A stretch of 64,000 bases of DNA from Buttiauxella izardii (GTDB lineage: Bacteria; Pseudomonadota; Gammaproteobacteria; Enterobacterales; Enterobacteriaceae), in NCBI RefSeq assembly GCF_003601925.1, contig NZ_QZWH01000001.1, positions 124,001 to 188,000 of the forward strand, in the 5' to 3' direction. Below, in pieces: positions 8,223-34,704 of this stretch. The position numbers were made by a program, and so were the translations under genes. A model generated the notes under the pieces. That model made no database searches. It was not told where the DNA came from and was given only the letters and a program-made list of their open reading frames with translations. Numbering within the stretch: the stretch's first letter is position 1; each line of letters starts with the position of its first letter.

Positions 8223-8249
8223 AAAAAAAAGCCCGCTTCATTGGCGGGC
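8223..8249 (-). terminator. trp operon attenuator terminator
   Basis: On the minus strand GCCCGC and GCGGGC pair around an AATGA-containing loop and run into eight T residues. It lies between trpL and trpE and is the 3:4 hairpin of the classic trp attenuator. Confidence 0.95.
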
Positions 8250-8296
8250 CTGGTATCTGGGCTGAATTTCAGCCATAGCGATGACACTGCCCGTTA

Positions 8297-8341
8297 TCAG
8301 GAAGTACGCCACCAGCTGTGCATGCGGATTATCGCTTTCAT
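8297..8341 (-). CDS. trpL: trp operon leader peptide
   Basis: A 14-codon reading frame encodes MKAIIRMHSWWRTS. The tandem tryptophan codons and the WWRTS ending match the enteric trp leader (E. coli [14 protein letters not shown]). Ribosome stalling at the two Trp codons chooses between antiterminator and terminator hairpins downstream. A GAAAGG ribosome site precedes the ATG. Residues 5-9 differ from E. coli, as expected where only the Trp codons and RNA pairing matter. Confidence 0.95.
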   Translation of the reverse strand: MKAIIRMHSWWRTS

Positions 8342-26550: not shown

Positions 26551-26769
26551 TTATTTACCTACCTGATGGCCGATAATACCACCGACTGCTGCACCACCTA
26601 ATGTACCCAGAGTGCTTCCGTCAGTTAATACAGCACCACCAAGAGCACCGGCACCTGCACCAATCGCGGTGTTACGGTCACGTTTAGACCAGTTAGAGCA
26701 AGCGCTCAGAGACATCGCAACGGTCAAAGCCAGAACAACGGCGGCAATTTTTTTGTTATTAAAGGTCAT
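26551..26769 (-). CDS. osmB: Osmotically inducible lipoprotein B
   Basis: OsmB is a 72-residue lipoprotein induced by osmotic and stationary-phase stress. The signal peptide ends at the lipobox LSAC, with Cys24 as lipid anchor. The mature part is a glycine-zipper (GAGAGALGGA and GGAAVGGIIG), which suggests membrane-associated helices. GGAGAG precedes the ATG. Its exact role is unknown. Confidence 0.95.
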   Translation of the reverse strand: MTFNNKKIAAVVLALTVAMSLSACSNWSKRDRNTAIGAGAGALGGAVLTDGSTLGTLGGAAVGGIIGHQVGK

Positions 26770-27035: not shown

Positions 27036-27821
27036 TTACTCGAGGGGGAATTGTTTAACGATGTTAACCTGAACGCCGCTGTCCTGAATCTGCTGAATCT
27101 GCTGAATCTGCTGAATCTGCTGCATCGCAAGTTCGCTCAGGCCATCATCGGTGATCACGCGATTAATGCGTGAGACAGGGCCAAGCGTGTAGGGGTGCAT
27201 CGCACCAAATTTACTGCTGTCCGTCAGCACGATGGCTTCGCTGCCTTTTTCCAGCACGGTGTTCACCACATCGGCACGCATCATATCGCGACTGGTAAAC
27301 CCGGTTTCAGGCAAAAAGCCGTCAATCCCAATGAACGCTTTGCTGAAATGCACTTGCTGGATAAACTGGCGCGTCAGCGGCCCAACCATGCTTTCACTTT
27401 TCTTCTGATAAATCCCGCCAAGCAACACCACTTCGCAATCAGTATCTTTCAAAAGATGGGCAATGTAGCTGCTTACGGTTATCAGCGTGATTTTTTTCTG
27501 CTCGGCTAATGCGCGTGCCAGTAGGGCATTACAGCTACCATTTTCGATAAAAATAGTCTCGCCGTCGTTAACCAACGTCGCAGCAAAATCAGCAAGTTGA
27601 CGTTTCAACGAATAATTGTTCATCATTCGCGTTTCAACATCTTCGCTATCGAGCGGCACAGCGTAACCGTGAGCACGGCGCAGGTAGTTTTTTTTCTCCA
27701 GAAGATTGAGATCCTGGCGAATGGTCACTTCTGAAACACCGGTTGTTTTAGCGAGCGAGGCCACACTCATGCGGCCTTGATCGATAACCATTTGTAAGAT
27801 TATTTGTTGTCTGGAGTTCAT
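27036..27821 (-). CDS. yciT: YciT, DeoR-family transcription regulator
   Basis: YciT has a DeoR-type HTH (about residues 1-57, [11 protein letters not shown] recognition helix) and a sugar-phosphate sensor domain ([27 protein letters not shown]). It has 261 residues, longer than E. coli YciT, and its tail holds four QQI/IQQ units that E. coli lacks. The ATG at 27821 matches MNSRQQ. It lies 42 bases behind ybiW on the same strand, so it is probably cotranscribed with ybiYW. That suggests control of this cluster and a phosphorylated sugar as inducer. Confidence 0.92.
27084..27119 (-). repeat. Four perfect 9-bp tandem repeats inside yciT
   Basis: The plus-strand unit CTGAATCTG occurs four times in a row and a fifth partial copy follows. 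It encodes a QQI repeat in the YciT tail. Because nine is a multiple of three, copy-number change keeps the frame. Confidence 0.95.
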
Positions 27822-27863
27822 GTCAGCCAATTATGGGCGGTGCTTAATGCACCGCCGGGATTA

Positions 27864-30296
27864 TCAAAGTGTATGTTCTGTACGGGCTATAATATCATCC
27901 TGAGCGTCTGGAGATAAGGCAGTAAAGAAAGCAGAGTAACCTGCTACACGCACCACCAGATCACGATATTTATCAGGATGTTGTTTGGCATCTAACAGGG
28001 TTTCACGGGAAACAATGTTGTATTGCACATGCCAGCCTTTGTGCGCCTCAAAGAAAGTACGCAGCATAAACATCAACTTCTCGCGGTCACGTGGGTTATC
28101 CAGAGTGGCCGGATTCAGTTTCTGATTCAGTAAAACACCGCCCAGAATTTTGCTGGTTGGCAATTTGCCGACGGAACTGATCACCGCAGTTGGCCCGAGG
28201 CGATCGGTGCCTGAAGCTGGGCTTGCGCCTTCCGCCAGTGGCGTTGTCGCTTTGCGTCCATCCGGCGTTGCCATAGTAGCAGCACCAAACGGCACGTTTG
28301 CAGAAATAGACGATGTGCCTGCGTAGTAAGTCCCGCCGATCGGGCCACGGCCAAAGCGCGTGTTGTGATACTGCTTCAGCTCATCGATATAAGTCTGGTA
28401 TGCGCGGGCTAACAACAAATCCACTTCATCTTCATCGTTACCATATTTTGGCGCGCCGTTAATCAAACGCTGGCGTAACTGCTCACCGGTTAAACCATCA
28501 AAATCATTCGCCAGTGCTTCTGCTAACTGCTGCTGCCCAATGGCACCTTGCTCAAACACCAGTTTTTTGACAGCGGCGAGGCCGTTACCGAGGTTGGCGA
28601 TACCGACTTGCAGGCCAGAAACCCAGTCGTATTTTGCGCCACCTTGTTTGACGCTCTTACCGCGTTCGATGCAATCATCCACCAGCGCTGAACACAGAAT
28701 ATCGTGAGCATTCTCTTCAAGAACCGTATCCACAACGCATTCTATTTCGATAGATTTCTGGGTGTAGTAGCGAATTTGTGTGTCCCATGCGTCCATCACT
28801 TGCTCAAACTGGGAGAAATTCCCTGCGGAAAGAGCATGTTCCTGCGGCAGGAAAACTTTGCCACTGGTTGCATCACGGCCACTTTCAAGCGCCGCCAGCA
28901 TGACACGCGCGAAGTTGATGAAGCTCATGCCGGTGCAACGATAACCCCATTTGCCGCCAACTGCTGTTTCGATGCACCCGATGGCTGCGTAATCGTAGGC
29001 ATCTTCGCGGCTGACACCCAGTTTGATAAATTCATCGATGACGATCTCATCATTGTTAAAGGCCGGCATCCCGAAACCACAGCGAATCACCTGCACACAG
29101 GCATCGAGGAAATCATTGCTCATGCCCGCATGGTAACGCACGCTCAAGTTGGGTTGTGTGGATCGTAACTGGCCGCAAGACTCCAGAATGGCGTAGGAGA
29201 GTGGGTTAACCGCGTCAACCGCTTCGCCATTCACCAACGTTTGACCGCCAATCGTCACGTTCTGGTAAAGCGGGCTACCGGCTGATGCTTTGGAGTGCGA
29301 GCCGGAGCGAATTTTGTTCACTTCAAGCAATTTCAACCAGCAGCTTTGCAGAAGTTCAATGGCCTGGTCGCGACCCAGCGTTTGCTCAAGCTCAACATCA
29401 CGGCGATACCACGGATACAGGAACTGATCGAGGCGACCAAACGACACAGAGTGGCCGTTAGATTCAATTTGCAATACCAGTTGAACAAAGTAGCTCAACT
29501 GCAATGCCTGCCAGAAAGAAGTCGGTTTGTTATGGGCGATCAGTTCGCAGTTTTCAGCAATGGCCAGTAATTCATCACGACGCGCCACGCGTTTTTCGGT
29601 TGCTGCCATTTCTTTGGCAAGAACCGCGAAACGACTGATATGGTCGCTTAATGCCACAAAAGTAATATCGATGGCTTTAAGGAACTGTTCTTTGTGCAAA
29701 TCTTCCCAATCGGTGAGATGTAAACGCGAACGGCGTTCAGCCACTTTTGCACGCAAACCGTCAATGCCTAACTCCAGCAGCAGCGGGAAGTTGACCGCAA
29801 GGTGCGCATCGCCTGAAGTCATGTTGCCTTCAGCTTTAATAATCCCACTCGCCAGCAGCTCTTTTTGCTCGTCAGTAAACATGCCGTAGCAACGATCTTG
29901 CACGGTCTGGCCGCGCCACCATGGGCAAATCTCATGCATTACTGCCTTATCAGCTTCTGAAATAGAGAAGCCTGCGCCAGGGCGGTCGCCCAGTTCGTCG
30001 ATCTCAGTTTCAATCCAGCCAACCGTATATTCCGGGAAGAACGGCGCACCGCGCACGTGGCTGGCCTGGTTGCCGACGATCAGCTCGTCGTGTTTGATCC
30101 AAATGGTGCGTTCCGCCAGATGATGGGCGAGGGCCAATGCGCGGCGCACCGGCAAAGGTTTGTCCTGGTGCTGCTGATAAATCGCCGTGTAATGTTGCGC
30201 ACGTTCGGTGCAAACCGGTGGCTTAACGATATGAATTAACGCTTCTTTATGGTCTTTGATGCGTTGGCTTAAGGTGTTCAGGTTCAGTTGGGTCAT
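27864..30296 (-). CDS. ybiW: Glycyl radical enzyme YbiW, probable 1,5-anhydroglucitol-6-phosphate lyase
   Basis: The 810-residue protein matches E. coli YbiW (PflF) nearly throughout. It has the thiyl cysteine Cys441 and Glu443 in GCIE and the radical glycine Gly786 in RVAGYSAFF. It lacks the tandem active cysteines of true pyruvate formate-lyase, so the older name is misleading. As I recall, recent work assigns YbiW to ring opening of 1,5-anhydroglucitol 6-phosphate, giving 1-deoxyfructose 6-phosphate for FsaA to split. The adjacent fsaA and activase fit that. It lies four bases after ybiY and is oxygen-sensitive by family. Confidence 0.93.
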   Translation of the reverse strand: MTQLNLNTLSQRIKDHKEALIHIVKPPVCTERAQHYTAIYQQHQDKPLPVRRALALAHHLAERTIWIKHDELIVGNQASHVRGAPFFPEYTVGWIETEIDELGDRPGAGFSISEADKAVMHEICPWWRGQTVQDRCYGMFTDEQKELLASGIIKAEGNMTSGDAHLAVNFPLLLELGIDGLRAKVAERRSRLHLTDWEDLHKEQFLKAIDITFVALSDHISRFAVLAKEMAATEKRVARRDELLAIAENCELIAHNKPTSFWQALQLSYFVQLVLQIESNGHSVSFGRLDQFLYPWYRRDVELEQTLGRDQAIELLQSCWLKLLEVNKIRSGSHSKASAGSPLYQNVTIGGQTLVNGEAVDAVNPLSYAILESCGQLRSTQPNLSVRYHAGMSNDFLDACVQVIRCGFGMPAFNNDEIVIDEFIKLGVSREDAYDYAAIGCIETAVGGKWGYRCTGMSFINFARVMLAALESGRDATSGKVFLPQEHALSAGNFSQFEQVMDAWDTQIRYYTQKSIEIECVVDTVLEENAHDILCSALVDDCIERGKSVKQGGAKYDWVSGLQVGIANLGNGLAAVKKLVFEQGAIGQQQLAEALANDFDGLTGEQLRQRLINGAPKYGNDEDEVDLLLARAYQTYIDELKQYHNTRFGRGPIGGTYYAGTSSISANVPFGAATMATPDGRKATTPLAEGASPASGTDRLGPTAVISSVGKLPTSKILGGVLLNQKLNPATLDNPRDREKLMFMLRTFFEAHKGWHVQYNIVSRETLLDAKQHPDKYRDLVVRVAGYSAFFTALSPDAQDDIIARTEHTL

Positions 30297-30300
30297 CGGT

Positions 30301-31200
30301 TTATCCTCTTATCCAGGCGGTCATCCCTTTTTGGCTTGCGTACTGCTGGGCAAATTCCAGCAATTCCGGCGCATCAAGGGGTTGCTGCGCGGCCAGATAA
30401 GGGAGATTCAGGAGTTTGTATTTGTTGATACCTAAGGTGTGGTAAGGCAAAAAGTGAATCGCTTTCACGCCGAGTTCATCGGCGGCAAAATCACTGATGG
30501 CGCGAATAGACTGCTCATCAGCATTAAAATCAGGGATCAGCGGCACGCGAATGGTCATTTCTACATTTCGTGCCGCCAGTTTGCGGAAGTTATCCATCAC
30601 GCGTTCGGCGCTGCCGTCGGTCCATTGTTTAAAACGCGTTGCGTCAACGTGCTTGAGATCGGCGAGCAGTAAATCCAAATGCTCAATCGACGGCTCGATA
30701 TATTTCCATGGCACGTGAAGACAAGATTCGACCGCCGTGTGAATGCCTGCGTCTTTGCTTTTTCTCAGCAATTGTTCCGCGATTTCAGGCTGCATAAACG
30801 GCTCGCCACCAGAAAGCGTAATCCCGCCACCGCTACGGTCATAAAACGGTTTATCACGCAGGACTTTCTGCATGATGGCATCAACGCTTTGGCTTTCACC
30901 GCAAACGCTTAACGCCTGAGTCGGGCAGCAGTCGGTCAACGTTGCCATGTCTTCGGCCATTAATTTTTCGCGGGCGATCACCAACGCATCGTCAACACGA
31001 CTGATTGCATGTGGCGCGGCCTGCGGGCAAAGTTCGCAACCTGCAAGACACAGCCGTTCATCAAACAACACATCCTGATCACGCGCACGGTTCTCTGGGT
31101 TTTGGCACCAGCGGCAGCCTAACGAGCAGCCTTTCAGGAAAACCACGGTGCGGATCCCTGGGCCATCATGTGTTGAGTAACGTTGAATATTAAATAGCAT
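30301..31200 (-). CDS. ybiY: YbiY, radical SAM glycyl-radical-enzyme activase
   Basis: YbiY (PflE) generates the glycyl radical on its partner YbiW. The 299-residue protein has the CxxxCxxC cluster Cys25, Cys29, Cys32 (GCSLGCRWC) and the SAM-binding GGEPF motif. A cysteine-rich insert at about 50-105 (CLAGCELCP and TDCCPTQ) should hold extra [4Fe-4S] clusters, as in most non-PFL activases. It is first in the apparent operon ybiY-ybiW-yciT and divergent from fsaA. Confidence 0.93.
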
Positions 31201-31235
31201 AAGCCCGTCCTTATCTTCTGTTCGTAAATTAGATT

Positions 31236-31251
31236 ACTTTCGAATGAAAGT
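31236..31251. promoter_or_regulatory. Palindrome in the ybiY-fsaA divergent promoter, candidate YciT operator
   Basis: ACTTTCGAATGAAAGT has perfect 6-bp arms around GAAT. DeoR-family regulators often bind TTTCG/CGAAA-like half sites, and a DeoR gene sits in the same operon. Assignment to YciT is inference. Confidence 0.55.
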
Positions 31252-31255
31252 TTTA

Positions 31256-31269
31256 TTGATTTTGATCAG
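31256..31269. promoter_or_regulatory. FNR-like box in the ybiY-fsaA divergent promoter
   Basis: TTGATTTTGATCAG matches the FNR consensus TTGATnnnnATCAA at nine of ten defined positions. Anaerobic activation is what an oxygen-sensitive glycyl radical system would need. Confidence 0.6.
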
Positions 31270-31333
31270 ATAAAGAACAGACAGTGGCGTTATCATGTCG
31301 GCAATGAGATAGATGACCCATCTGGAGAGTTTT

Positions 31334-31996
31334 ATGGAACTGTATTTAGACACGGCGGATGTAGCCGCCGTTAAGCGCTTAGCGCGCGTTTTGCCTTTGC
31401 AGGGTGTGACCACCAACCCGTCGATTGTGGCAAAAGCCGGTATTTCGCTGTGGGAAGTGTTGCCCGCATTACAGGATGCGTTAGGCGGTGAGGGGAAATT
31501 ATTTGCCCAGGTGATTGCAGCACAAGCCGACGAAATGGTGAAAGAGGCTGAATTGCTGGTGAAACGCGTTCCGGGCCTGGTCGTGAAAGTTCCGACCACG
31601 GTGGAAGGCCTGGCGGCCATGAAGCAGTTGAAAATTGCGGGGATCCCAACGCTGGGTACGGCGGTTTATGGCGCTACGCAGGGTTTGTTAGCGGCACTGG
31701 CGGGGGCTGAATATGTCGCGCCATATGTGAATCGCCTCGATGCACAAGGCGGCGACGGTATTCAGATGGTTCAGGATTTACAGCAGTTACTGACGTTACA
31801 CGCGCCACAATCCAAAGTGCTGGCTGCCAGTTTCCGCACGCCGCACCAGGCAATGTCTTGCCTGCTGGCGGGTTGCGAAGCGATTACGTTACCCGTTGAT
31901 GTGACTGAACAGCTATTAACGACCCCAGCCGTGAATGCGGCAATCGCGACATTCGAGAAAGACTGGCAGGGCGCGTTCGGTTCTTTAAGCCTGTAA
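31334..31996 (+). CDS. fsaA: Fructose-6-phosphate aldolase
   Basis: FSA is a small transaldolase-family enzyme that cleaves fructose 6-phosphate or, better, 1-deoxyfructose-type substrates to glyceraldehyde 3-phosphate and dihydroxyacetone or hydroxyacetone. The 220-residue length equals E. coli FsaA. The Schiff-base lysine is Lys85 in VVKVPTT. ATG 31334 with GGAGAG is preferred over an in-frame ATG seven codons earlier. Divergence from ybiYW matches the E. coli ybiYW/fsaA layout, although that locus is elsewhere in E. coli. Confidence 0.94.
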
Positions 31997-32025: not shown

Positions 32026-32208
32026 TCAAATCTCCCAGGGCGACTTTTTCAAGTCGCTTTCTTTTTGCTCTTCGCCATTAGCGATGGCGAGCAATTCAGC
32101 TTTTAAAATTTCCAGATTATTAATGGCAGATGCGTGATCGCCTCCCACCAGAATATCCAGCACGGTATCAATACGTTTTGCGAGTTGAAGCGGGTTAACT
32201 GTAGGCAT
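32026..32208 (-). CDS. yciZ: YciZ, UPF0509 small protein
   Basis: The 60-residue protein matches YciZ in the [13 protein letters not shown] and [10 protein letters not shown] stretches and the terminal SPWEI. It has no signal or membrane helix. Function is unknown. In E. coli it sits between yciT and pdeR; here the ybiYW-fsaA block separates it from yciT. Confidence 0.88.
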
Positions 32209-33318: not shown

Positions 33319-33354
33319 GGGCGCCATTCGTTGTTTGAATGGCGTCCTTTTTTT
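33319..33354 (+). terminator. rpfF terminator
   Basis: GGCGCCATTC and GAATGGCGTCC pair around GTTGTTT and are followed by seven T residues. Confidence 0.9.
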
Positions 33355-34243
33355 AACGTCGAAGCAATTCAAGAAATGTTTGCAGAACGGGAGATTTATT
33401 TTGCTTCGACCAGGCGACAGCAATACCCATTGAGAGTGGATGTGCCTCTTGTTTCAGCTTGCGGAAAACAACACCTTGCCGCTTGATACATTGTAGCGAT
33501 GCGGGAACAAGCGCAACGCCTTTCCCTTCAGCAATCAGCCCCAACAGGATGTGATGGTCTGGCGGTTCTGGAATGACATGAGGTTTAAAATCGATCTTCT
33601 GGAAAAATGCCTGGCAGTGATCATAAAAACCGGGGTTGAGTCGCCGCTCAAACCAGAACATGGGTTCATCGCGAAGCATGTCGAAACTAATAAGGCGTTT
33701 ATTCGCCAGTCTGTGCCCCGACGGTAAAGCGACGACCAGAGGATCATCAATAATTTTTTCAACTTGCAGATCCTGAACATCCGTGTGTAAACCCACAAAT
33801 GCCACGTCCATTGCGCCTTTACTTATTTCACGAACCAGATTAATCGAATAGCTTCCCGTGGTCAGGATTTGCCAGTCAGGAAAACGTTGGCGCAACTCGT
33901 CCATCACGTCTGGAATAGCACTTCGCTCAAATACGGTCGTGTAACCAACGACAAACTTTCCTCGATTTTTACTCTGCATTTTCTGGGCGACAGCAATCGC
34001 CTTTTCAGCCTGTAAAAGCGTGCGTTTTACTTCTGGTAAGAATGCTGCTCCCGCCTCAGTCAGCGTCACGCCCGTTTTGCTGCGCAAAAATAGCTGAACG
34101 CCAAGTTGTTCTTCTAACTGGCGAATCTGCCTGCTCAACGGCGGCTGAGAAATATGCAAGCGCACGGCGGCGCGGCTGAAGTTCAGCTCTTCGCACACCG
34201 CCATAAAATAACGGAATTGACGTAAATCGATGGATTCATTCAT
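33353..34243 (-). CDS. LysR-family transcription regulator
   Basis: A 296-residue LysR-type regulator with the HTH at about 5-65 (HISQPPLSRQIRQLEEQLG) and an effector domain from about 92 (GKFVVGYTTVFE). It belongs to the group regulating aromatic or small-acid catabolic genes by general appearance, but I cannot name an orthologue. It is divergent from the carboxymuconolactone-decarboxylase-like gene and probably controls it. The pair sits between rpfF and pdeR and is absent from this place in E. coli. Confidence 0.85.
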   Translation of the reverse strand: MNESIDLRQFRYFMAVCEELNFSRAAVRLHISQPPLSRQIRQLEEQLGVQLFLRSKTGVTLTEAGAAFLPEVKRTLLQAEKAIAVAQKMQSKNRGKFVVGYTTVFERSAIPDVMDELRQRFPDWQILTTGSYSINLVREISKGAMDVAFVGLHTDVQDLQVEKIIDDPLVVALPSGHRLANKRLISFDMLRDEPMFWFERRLNPGFYDHCQAFFQKIDFKPHVIPEPPDHHILLGLIAEGKGVALVPASLQCIKRQGVVFRKLKQEAHPLSMGIAVAWSKQNKSPVLQTFLELLRR

Positions 34244-34256
34244 ACCAAAAAGGTAT
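34242..34256. promoter_or_regulatory. Candidate LysR operator
   Basis: ATACCAAAAAGGTAT is a palindrome with 5-bp arms that fits the T-N11-A LysR box. It overlaps the regulator's own start codon, and a second GGTAT follows about ten bases on. Autoregulation and divergent control are plausible. Confidence 0.5.
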
Positions 34257-34329
34257 CACAAAAAGGGTATTGGATGCACCGCGTAAGAAATTTTAGAGTG
34301 CGTTCACGACTCAACAACAAGGAATGAAA

Positions 34330-34704
34330 ATGGAAAACGAACGTTATTTACGTGGTCTTGCGAAATTAAAAGAAGTGGATGGGCAGGCAGGGGATAATGT
34401 CATTAATAGCCTGAAAGATATTGCCCCCGATTTTGCGCGCCTGCTTATTGAGTTTCCTTTTGGCGATATTTATTCAAGACCCGGCCTCGATTTAAAGTCT
34501 CGCGAAATTGCGGTGGTTGCCGCACTCACTGCACTCGGCAATGCAACGCCGCAGCTTAAAGTCCATATCGAGGGCGCACTGAATGTGGGGTGCTCGCAAC
34601 AAGAGATTATAGAAGTGATGATGCAAATGGCGGTCTATGCAGGATTTCCCAGCGCACTAAATGGATTATTTGCCGCCAAAGAGGTGTTCGCACAAATAAA
34701 ATAG
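34330..34704 (+). CDS. Carboxymuconolactone-decarboxylase family protein (AhpD-like fold)
   Basis: A 124-residue protein of the CMD family, with the typical [19 protein letters not shown] and [19 protein letters not shown] helices. It lacks the CxxC pair of AhpD-type peroxidase partners (one Cys only), so thiol reductase activity is unlikely. ATG 34330 has AAGGA six bases upstream; an ATG two codons earlier sits on top of that site. Substrate is unknown. It is divergent from the LysR gene. Confidence 0.82.

Follow-up and report, generated by a model that had tools for sequence, protein, structure and literature searches.

GlpR, AgaR, SrlR and DeoR are sugar-phosphate repressors of the DeoR family. 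The orphan regulator YciT resembles them in combining HTH_DeoR and DeoRC domains and in having a predicted palindromic operator that adjoins a catabolic operon. Here we analyze the yciT locus in a 64,000-nucleotide stretch of Buttiauxella izardii DNA (contig NZ_QZWH01000001.1, positions 124,001 to 188,000; hereafter the window), in which yciT lies behind ybiY and ybiW, with fsaA divergent from ybiY. FSA cleaves 1-deoxyfructose 6-phosphate. YbiW and the FSA aldolase, the latter by family, are the same kinds of enzyme as in radical-mediated glycolysis, reportedly the subject of a paper by Ma et al. in 2024 (doi 10.1021/jacs.4c07718). The E. coli YbiW is an enzyme that opens the ring of 1,5-anhydroglucitol 6-phosphate (1,5-AG6P), as summarised in the available part of PMC12441222. 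The ybiY-ybiW-yciT/fsaA locus is a real, conserved regulatory unit, and we think it probable that this divergent arrangement is the ancestral YciT regulon for the anaerobic breakdown of 1,5-AG6P, switched by a YciT operator together with an FNR box. Linkage, palindrome, box, geometry and tree come from sequence comparison; binding and changed expression were found by others in E. coli.

The regulon of E. coli K-12 YciT has the orthologous regulator and targets and differs in that yciT is unlinked there. In its available passages, Gao et al. 2021 (PMC8464067) report 49 YciT sites by chromatin immunoprecipitation with exonuclease treatment (ChIP-exo), of which 23 fall in regulatory regions, including those upstream of ybiUVWY and fsaA, together with a palindromic motif and, by RNA sequencing, changed expression of ybiV, ybiY and fsaA in a yciT deletion; a role in osmolarity is proposed and the pathway is called unknown. 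A 2025 preprint (PMC12132413), likewise from the parts available, describes a ybiYW promoter that is active anaerobically and on which YciT is enriched, with an unnamed activator upstream, and proposes an anaerobic response. The initial annotation of the window had called the YciT regulon poorly defined, which is out of date given binding upstream of ybiY, ybiV and fsaA since 2021 and at ybiYW since 2025. Its proposal that YciT regulates ybiYW-fsaA is supported by the conserved linkage, a conserved operator and the E. coli ChIP-exo and expression data; the dedicated, single role that it also assigned to YciT is weakened. YciT control of ybiYW-fsaA is well supported and, for E. coli, partly in print. 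Three elements appear new within the literature searched, namely the ancestral operon, the architecture that pairs FNR with the operator, and a link to YbiU: an ancestral operon is not mentioned in the available passages of PMC8464067 and PMC12132413, "FNR" is absent from the main texts of both, and Gao et al. 2021 makes no mention of "anhydroglucitol". Searches that most subscription journals lay outside returned, among the matches listed, nothing joining YciT to anhydroglucitol; with the same coverage, none was found joining ybiY, FNR and anaerobic.

Architecture of the ybiY-fsaA intergenic region

Recomputing the layout gave the same picture as the initial annotation: ybiY, ybiW and yciT are co-directional with gaps of 4 and 42 bases, and fsaA is divergent across 133 bases. 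To place the region between ybiY and fsaA in context, we collected 68 regions in which the two genes were found at most 600 bases apart and on different strands, and kept 67, near-duplicates included; L206, whose region is cut short, and L178, in which fsaA lies 3.8 kb off, were left out. The 14-bp core CTTTCRWWYGAAAG of the predicted YciT operator is found at ≤3 mismatches in 67/67 of these regions (41 exact); the window has one site at ≤2 mismatches, against a mean of 3.35 in shuffles. A match to TTGATN4ATCAA at ≤2 mismatches likewise lies somewhere in 67/67. Since FNR boxes of this quality are not rare by themselves, arising in up to 10% of shuffles, it is the fixed spacing that carries the argument for FNR: the gap from operator to box is identical in 64 of the 67 regions, and of 27 dissimilar representatives 25 place a ≤2-mismatch box at the fixed spot, against a mean of 0.02 and a maximum of 1 in 2000 shuffles.

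Scoring offsets of 18 to 44 from the box centre for resemblance to TATAAT on both sides gave a single peak in each direction, at offset 28 towards fsaA (3.71 of 6, next best 2.62) and at offset 29 towards ybiY (4.08 of 6, next best 2.75), which thus places the box near −41 of both promoters. By arithmetic the operator centre then falls at about −22.5 of the ybiY promoter, in the spacer between −35 and −10, and at about −59.5, upstream of the fsaA promoter. FNR class II promoters have a TTGATN4ATCAA consensus box centred near −41.5. By box and by position the ybiY-fsaA region fits an FNR-activated class II promoter, with FNR as the presumed acting protein, and the locus differs from the DeoR-family repressors named above in that a constant distance separates its operator from an FNR-type box. 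The available part of the preprint (PMC12132413) puts the YciT site near −5 and the activator near −20 of the predicted ybiYW start, an order and rough distance that would match the operator-box layout provided that this start is some 18 to 20 bases off.

Distribution of yciT, ybiW and ybiU

We sampled genomes as even draws, 295 from the order and 178 from the family, the two samples overlapping. In the order sample, YciT-like proteins (E ≤ 1e-60) are found in 52 genomes and YbiW orthologues (70–100% identity) in 31, all of them among the 52. Where ybiW is present, yciT lies on the same strand within 1.4 kb in 23/31; the remaining eight comprise six E. coli-type genomes, G258, with the parts separated, and G276, in which the locus is broken over contig ends. 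Outside the window's family the same proximity and orientation hold in 19/19 ybiW genomes, one of which (G261) has an opposite-strand open reading frame (ORF) between the two genes, and fsaA is divergent beside ybiY in 16 of these 19, the exceptions being three f27 genomes. A class-wide search matched YbiW in the window's own genome (1/229) and nowhere else in the class.

In the family sample, yciT is found in 72 genomes, ybiW in 58 and ybiU (≥64% identity) in 37, one ybiU copy being broken by a stop (G412). The ybiW and ybiU sets lie wholly within the 72, with Fisher probabilities for co-occurrence with yciT of 7.5e-34 and 1.8e-18, respectively, in tests that ignore phylogeny. Linkage takes several forms: ybiW and yciT are 45–118 bp apart in 21 genomes (strand not being part of this test), ybiU and yciT are linked in six, all are in one cluster in two (G358 and G412), and 27 have the E. 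coli-type ybiU-ybiW arrangement with yciT elsewhere; one ybiU genome, G315, is without such a link. Seven family genomes have yciT without ybiW or ybiU. Three of these keep yciT beside fsaA at osmB (L205, L207 and L235), and in a fourth (L206) fsaA and a partial ybiY remain.

Age of the linked layout

As the initial annotation stated, ybiYW-fsaA and yciT are apart in E. coli: in K-12, ybiUVWY/fsaA occupies 857.8–864.3 kb, adjoining moeBA, and yciT occupies 1343.6–1344.3 kb, in the order pyrF-yciH-osmB-yciT-yciZ-pdeR without ybiWY-fsaA. Because yciT is at the same site in the window and in E. coli, what sets the window apart is that ybiWY-fsaA lies between yciT and yciZ. A survey of yciT neighbours across Enterobacterales, which the annotation had proposed, shows that the adjacency of yciT and ybiYW recurs in other genomes. 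The layout is not a chance one, because the complete order fsaA/ybiY-ybiW-yciT is found in four other families (f12, f20, f21 and f25), and a fifth (f27) has ybiY-ybiW-yciT with fsaA not adjoining. The same order is present at the same osmB site in the deeper family members L219, L220, L222, L226, L227 and L230.

A tree of 105 YciT proteins, some of whose outer joins are on long branches, places the lone E. coli-type YciT in a group of 44 (support 97/94), the nearest outer row of which is linked (L230; 100/97). This group lies inside an osmB-site clade (95/85) that holds more linked deeper members, and the linked YciT proteins of other families lie outside it; the branching order of lone and linked members within the 44, and hence the number of losses, is left unsettled by the tree. 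With the lone E. coli-type yciT nested in a clade that has linked deeper members, linkage is best taken as the older state, and the linked ybiY-ybiW-yciT layout is likely ancestral in the family. In the lineage of E. coli, ybiWY-fsaA would have come, with its promoter and operator, to adjoin moeBA and ybiUV, yciT having stayed at osmB. An E. coli plasmid with ybiY-fsa was considered as a mobile copy and set aside: it carries the neighbours found on the chromosome, and the annotation of its ybiY records a frameshift.

Extent of the predicted regulon

Operator matches were counted in the 130 bases upstream of genes in the fetched loci. Mean mismatches are 0.68 for ybiY (n = 37), 0.91 for fsaA (n = 43, the same site), 1.0 for ybiU (n = 21) and 1.4 for ybiV (n = 10), and range from 4.5 to 5.8 for 18 other neighbouring genes. 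Upstream of ybiU, a site with ≤2 mismatches is present in 19/21 real sequences versus about 1% of 4200 shuffles. Single cases elsewhere are an exact operator upstream of yciT in L155, a locus without ybiYW in which yciT and fsaA face each other, and a two-mismatch match upstream of rnb in L170. E. coli has the exact 14-bp core between ybiY and fsaA (L194) and one-mismatch sites before ybiV and ybiU. Among 13 genomes searched for the core, the exact sequence occurs once in each of three Buttiauxella genomes, whose matches were listed in full, always at ybiY-fsaA. The partner of the operator varies: before ybiV a CRP-like box follows it by 5–6 bases in 9/10, a second difference from DeoR-family repressors, and before ybiU the best FNR-like box lying 2–8 bases from the operator has at least three mismatches in 20/21 (two in L201).

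Other palindromes of this kind were also seen. Three loci of f20 and f21 (L186, L187 and L189) have an extra YciT-operator-like palindrome in the ybiW-yciT gap, before yciT, as if for autoregulation. In the four f2 loci L165–L168 (of 11, four fetched), which have no ybiW, fsaA or ybiU nearby, an operator-like palindrome (1–2 mismatches) lies about 58 bases before the YciT-like gene itself. A one-mismatch operator (L217, 5301–5314) is present as the same 14-mer in all three Buttiauxella genomes; in G000, the one whose surroundings were inspected, it is near bsmA- and ulaAB-like genes.

Proposed mechanism and alternatives

From this geometry we infer the following scheme. YciT would bind the 16-bp palindrome, in the ybiY −35/−10 spacer and upstream of the fsaA promoter, and most likely represses, rather than activates, until a sugar phosphate of the pathway, its presumed ligand, is present. 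One FNR box between the promoters, centred at about −41.5 and −40.5, would turn both on without oxygen, and if yciT is co-transcribed with the enzyme genes, YciT would also control itself.

Several observations weigh against this scheme, or against so narrow a role. The operator-box spacing, located by scan, departs from the fixed value in L152, L198 and L214; a hairpin sits between ybiW and yciT and perhaps keeps the regulator level under that of the enzymes; and no operator precedes fsaA in L205 and L235, where fsaA is kept without ybiYW (L207 has one). When up to one mismatch is allowed, the core shows no excess over a reversed control in the Buttiauxella genomes (12 versus 12, 12 versus 8 and 6 versus 12). 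Among family genomes with ybiW, 8/58 show no link of that gene to either yciT or ybiU, yciT is on the strand opposite to ybiW in G340, and the linked yciT of G307 and G441 is a second copy. The osmB-site clade also leaves out unlinked YciT-like proteins from f2 and f10. In the order sample, 21/52 genomes with a YciT-like protein are without ybiW; ybiU adjoins the yciT-like gene in five of these, and 16 have neither ybiW nor ybiU (≥65%), namely 11 from f2, two from f10, two from f25 and one from f27, with surroundings fetched for nine. Finally, the 49 E. coli sites and the poorer growth of a yciT mutant in salt on sorbitol, as given in the available part of PMC8464067, are left unexplained by a regulator devoted to one pathway.

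The most plausible alternative, though less likely than not, is that the signal for YciT is not specific to the pathway but is a widespread sugar phosphate, for example fructose 6-phosphate or sorbitol 6-phosphate. It would suit a DeoR-family protein with a DeoRC sensor and weaker matches to the SrlR, AgaR and GlpR models, and also the 16/52 order genomes just described; the presence of ybiW only in genomes with a yciT homologue (31/31 and 58/58) favours a pathway-specific signal. We regard it as improbable that YciT is chiefly an osmotic-stress regulator with the ybi genes as one of many targets. The salt phenotype, a peak at the mechanosensitive channel gene ybiO among the YciT sites and the authors' own conclusion (PMC8464067, in the passages available) point that way, as does the location of yciT at the osmB/yciH/pyrF site for 108 of 157 collected proteins. 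As a YciT target, however, osmB was rejected, since none of 23 osmB upstream regions has an operator (best match 4–6 mismatches); the sole exact core in each Buttiauxella genome is at ybiY-fsaA, and outside the family it is ybiW, not osmB, to which yciT is linked in all 19 ybiW genomes. That a lone yciT at osmB came first and ybiYW-fsaA was inserted later, only in Buttiauxella, Cedecea and near kin, is very unlikely. In its favour, 60/80 named yciT loci are without ybiW beside yciT, the tree does not separate lone from linked proteins among those closest to the window, and unlinked f2 and f10 proteins lie outside. The idea was set aside because the six deeper members share both the gene order and the osmB site, four other families carry the order elsewhere, and the lone E. 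coli-type yciT nests in the osmB-site clade beside a linked basal row.

If the ancestral-regulon reading is right, it would explain why E. coli YciT is found on ybiY, ybiV and fsaA and tie an orphan regulator to a pathway, and FNR would be a name for the activator left unnamed at ybiYW in the available part of the 2025 preprint (PMC12132413). It would also yield a hypothesis for YbiU, a protein of solved structure. 1,5-AG6P is reported to be the metabolite behind the neutropenia of glycogen storage disease type Ib and G6PC3 deficiency, and bacterial genes regulated to dispose of this compound would therefore have wider use.

YbiU as a possible oxygen-using branch

YbiU matches the Gig2-like family of Pfam and has solved structures (2dbi, 2dbn and 2csg). 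The residues H203xD205 and the later His 318, 340 and 345 are invariant in 22 sequences; Fe(II)/2-oxoglutarate oxygenases bind their metal through an HxD...H triad. A match to PhyH is weak and confined to the YbiU paralogue of G000 (1.3e-4), and a profile of 13 YbiU sequences matches only its own family in the PDB at E ≤ 0.001. We infer that YbiU may be an Fe(II)/2-oxoglutarate oxygenase. Among genomes that have ybiU and not ybiW, ybiU adjoins yciT in 6/7 of the family sample and 5/5 of the order sample, two being shared. YbiU can be read as the oxygen-using counterpart of YbiW because it stands beside yciT without ybiW, shares the operator and usually lacks the FNR box, which suggests an oxygen-dependent branch of one YciT regulon; the presence of ybiW in 30 of the 37 family genomes with ybiU tells against this.

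A fuller and distinctly speculative version is that YciT governs a two-armed disposal of the same anhydrosugar or its phosphate, in which an FNR-driven YbiYW-FsaA arm would work without oxygen, an oxygen-dependent YbiU would hydroxylate the anhydro carbon to give an ordinary hexose, and the phosphatase YbiV would be a safety valve. On this view a single regulator would oversee two answers to the same problem, YbiU using oxygen and YbiW doing without it. The matches listed included no title or abstract on YbiU activity, a search joining Gig2 and dioxygenase found nothing relevant, and one gap-filling paper, in its available part, guesses a thymidylate reaction. Buttiauxella has only a 48% YbiU paralogue; it is unlinked, and the 16 kb fetched contain no operator site at ≤1 mismatch. 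In the window's genome this paralogue (L218, 7741–9000) is next to an aminotransferase gene of alaC type and a sensor pair resembling YpdAB.

Genes and flanks of the locus

The reading frames of yciT, ybiW, ybiY and fsaA are all open end to end (Table 1). The window YciT is an orthologue by the NCBI curated model and the HTH_DeoR and DeoRC domains, and relatives from other families fall under the cut-off of that model. Its start at ATG 27821 agrees with relatives, the mechanical ORF call having been placed at TTG 27830. YbiY and YbiW were assigned with subfamily-level models. The full-length YbiW has its RVAGY and GCIE motifs at positions identical to those of K-12 YbiW, so by length and motifs it is a predicted YbiW-type 1,5-AG6P lyase.

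Table 1. Predicted features of the yciT-ybiW-ybiY/fsaA locus and its immediate flanks, in window coordinates
Feature	Position	Strand	Evidence
osmB, left flank of the conserved site	26551..26769	-	translation, coordinates hand-counted; E. coli has the same neighbour
yciT, DeoR-family regulator, 261 aa	27036..27821	-	NF040887, 486.6 bits (cut-off 450); PF08220 helix-turn-helix; PF00455 sensor domain; ATG 27821
GC-rich intercistronic hairpin, ybiW/yciT gap, without U-tract	27836..27856	-	gap folds to -17.0 kcal/mol (no shuffle control)
ybiW, glycyl radical enzyme, 810 aa	27864..30296	-	TIGR01774, 1264 bits; PDB 8id7 YbiW chain, 1610 bits
ybiY, radical S-adenosylmethionine activase	30301..31200	-	TIGR02494, 348 bits
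Predicted ybiY -10 hexamer, TCTAAT	31228..31233	-	score peak at offset 29 from FNR box centre, 24 representatives
Predicted YciT operator, ACTTTCGAATGAAAGT, 16-bp palindrome	31236..31251	.	sole match in the window at ≤2 mismatches from the 14-bp core
Predicted FNR box, TTGATTTTGATCAG	31256..31269	.	TTGATN4ATCAA-like, fixed gap to operator
Predicted fsaA -10 hexamer, TATCAT	31291..31296	+	score peak at offset 28 from FNR box centre
fsaA, fructose-6-phosphate aldolase	31334..31996	+	NF009296 (PRK12653), 373.8 bits (cut-off 306)
yciZ, right flank	32026..32208	-	translation, coordinates hand-counted; directly after yciT in E. coli (L195)

The initial annotation had described the locus as self-contained, which is only partly right: the four genes are together, and no transporter gene is seen within 27036–31996. 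Among the fetched loci whose neighbours were inspected, one from an f27 genome stands out (L178, 3187–6267): there a lactose/cellobiose-type phosphotransferase system (IIA, IIB and IIC) and fsaA adjoin ybiYW and two copies of yciT, and this system is a candidate anhydrosugar transporter. The ybiW-yciT gaps folded from other linked genomes have hairpins too, with differing sequences, a few of them followed by a U-tract (L222 and L182); these carry no shuffle control.

On one side the locus is flanked by pyrF-yciH-osmB and on the other by yciZ, an RpfF-like crotonase gene, a LysR regulator gene, a PcaC-like gene and pdeR; among 80 named yciT loci the closest to the window is that of B. agrestis (95%). 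The LysR regulator is divergent from the PcaC-like gene (33353–34704, between the crotonase gene and pdeR), and the pair was detected in 6 of the 80 named loci, all Buttiauxella, in fetched flanks that stop near there. The sole Rfam match in the window at gathering score is a tryptophan operon leader at 8223–8320 on the minus strand.

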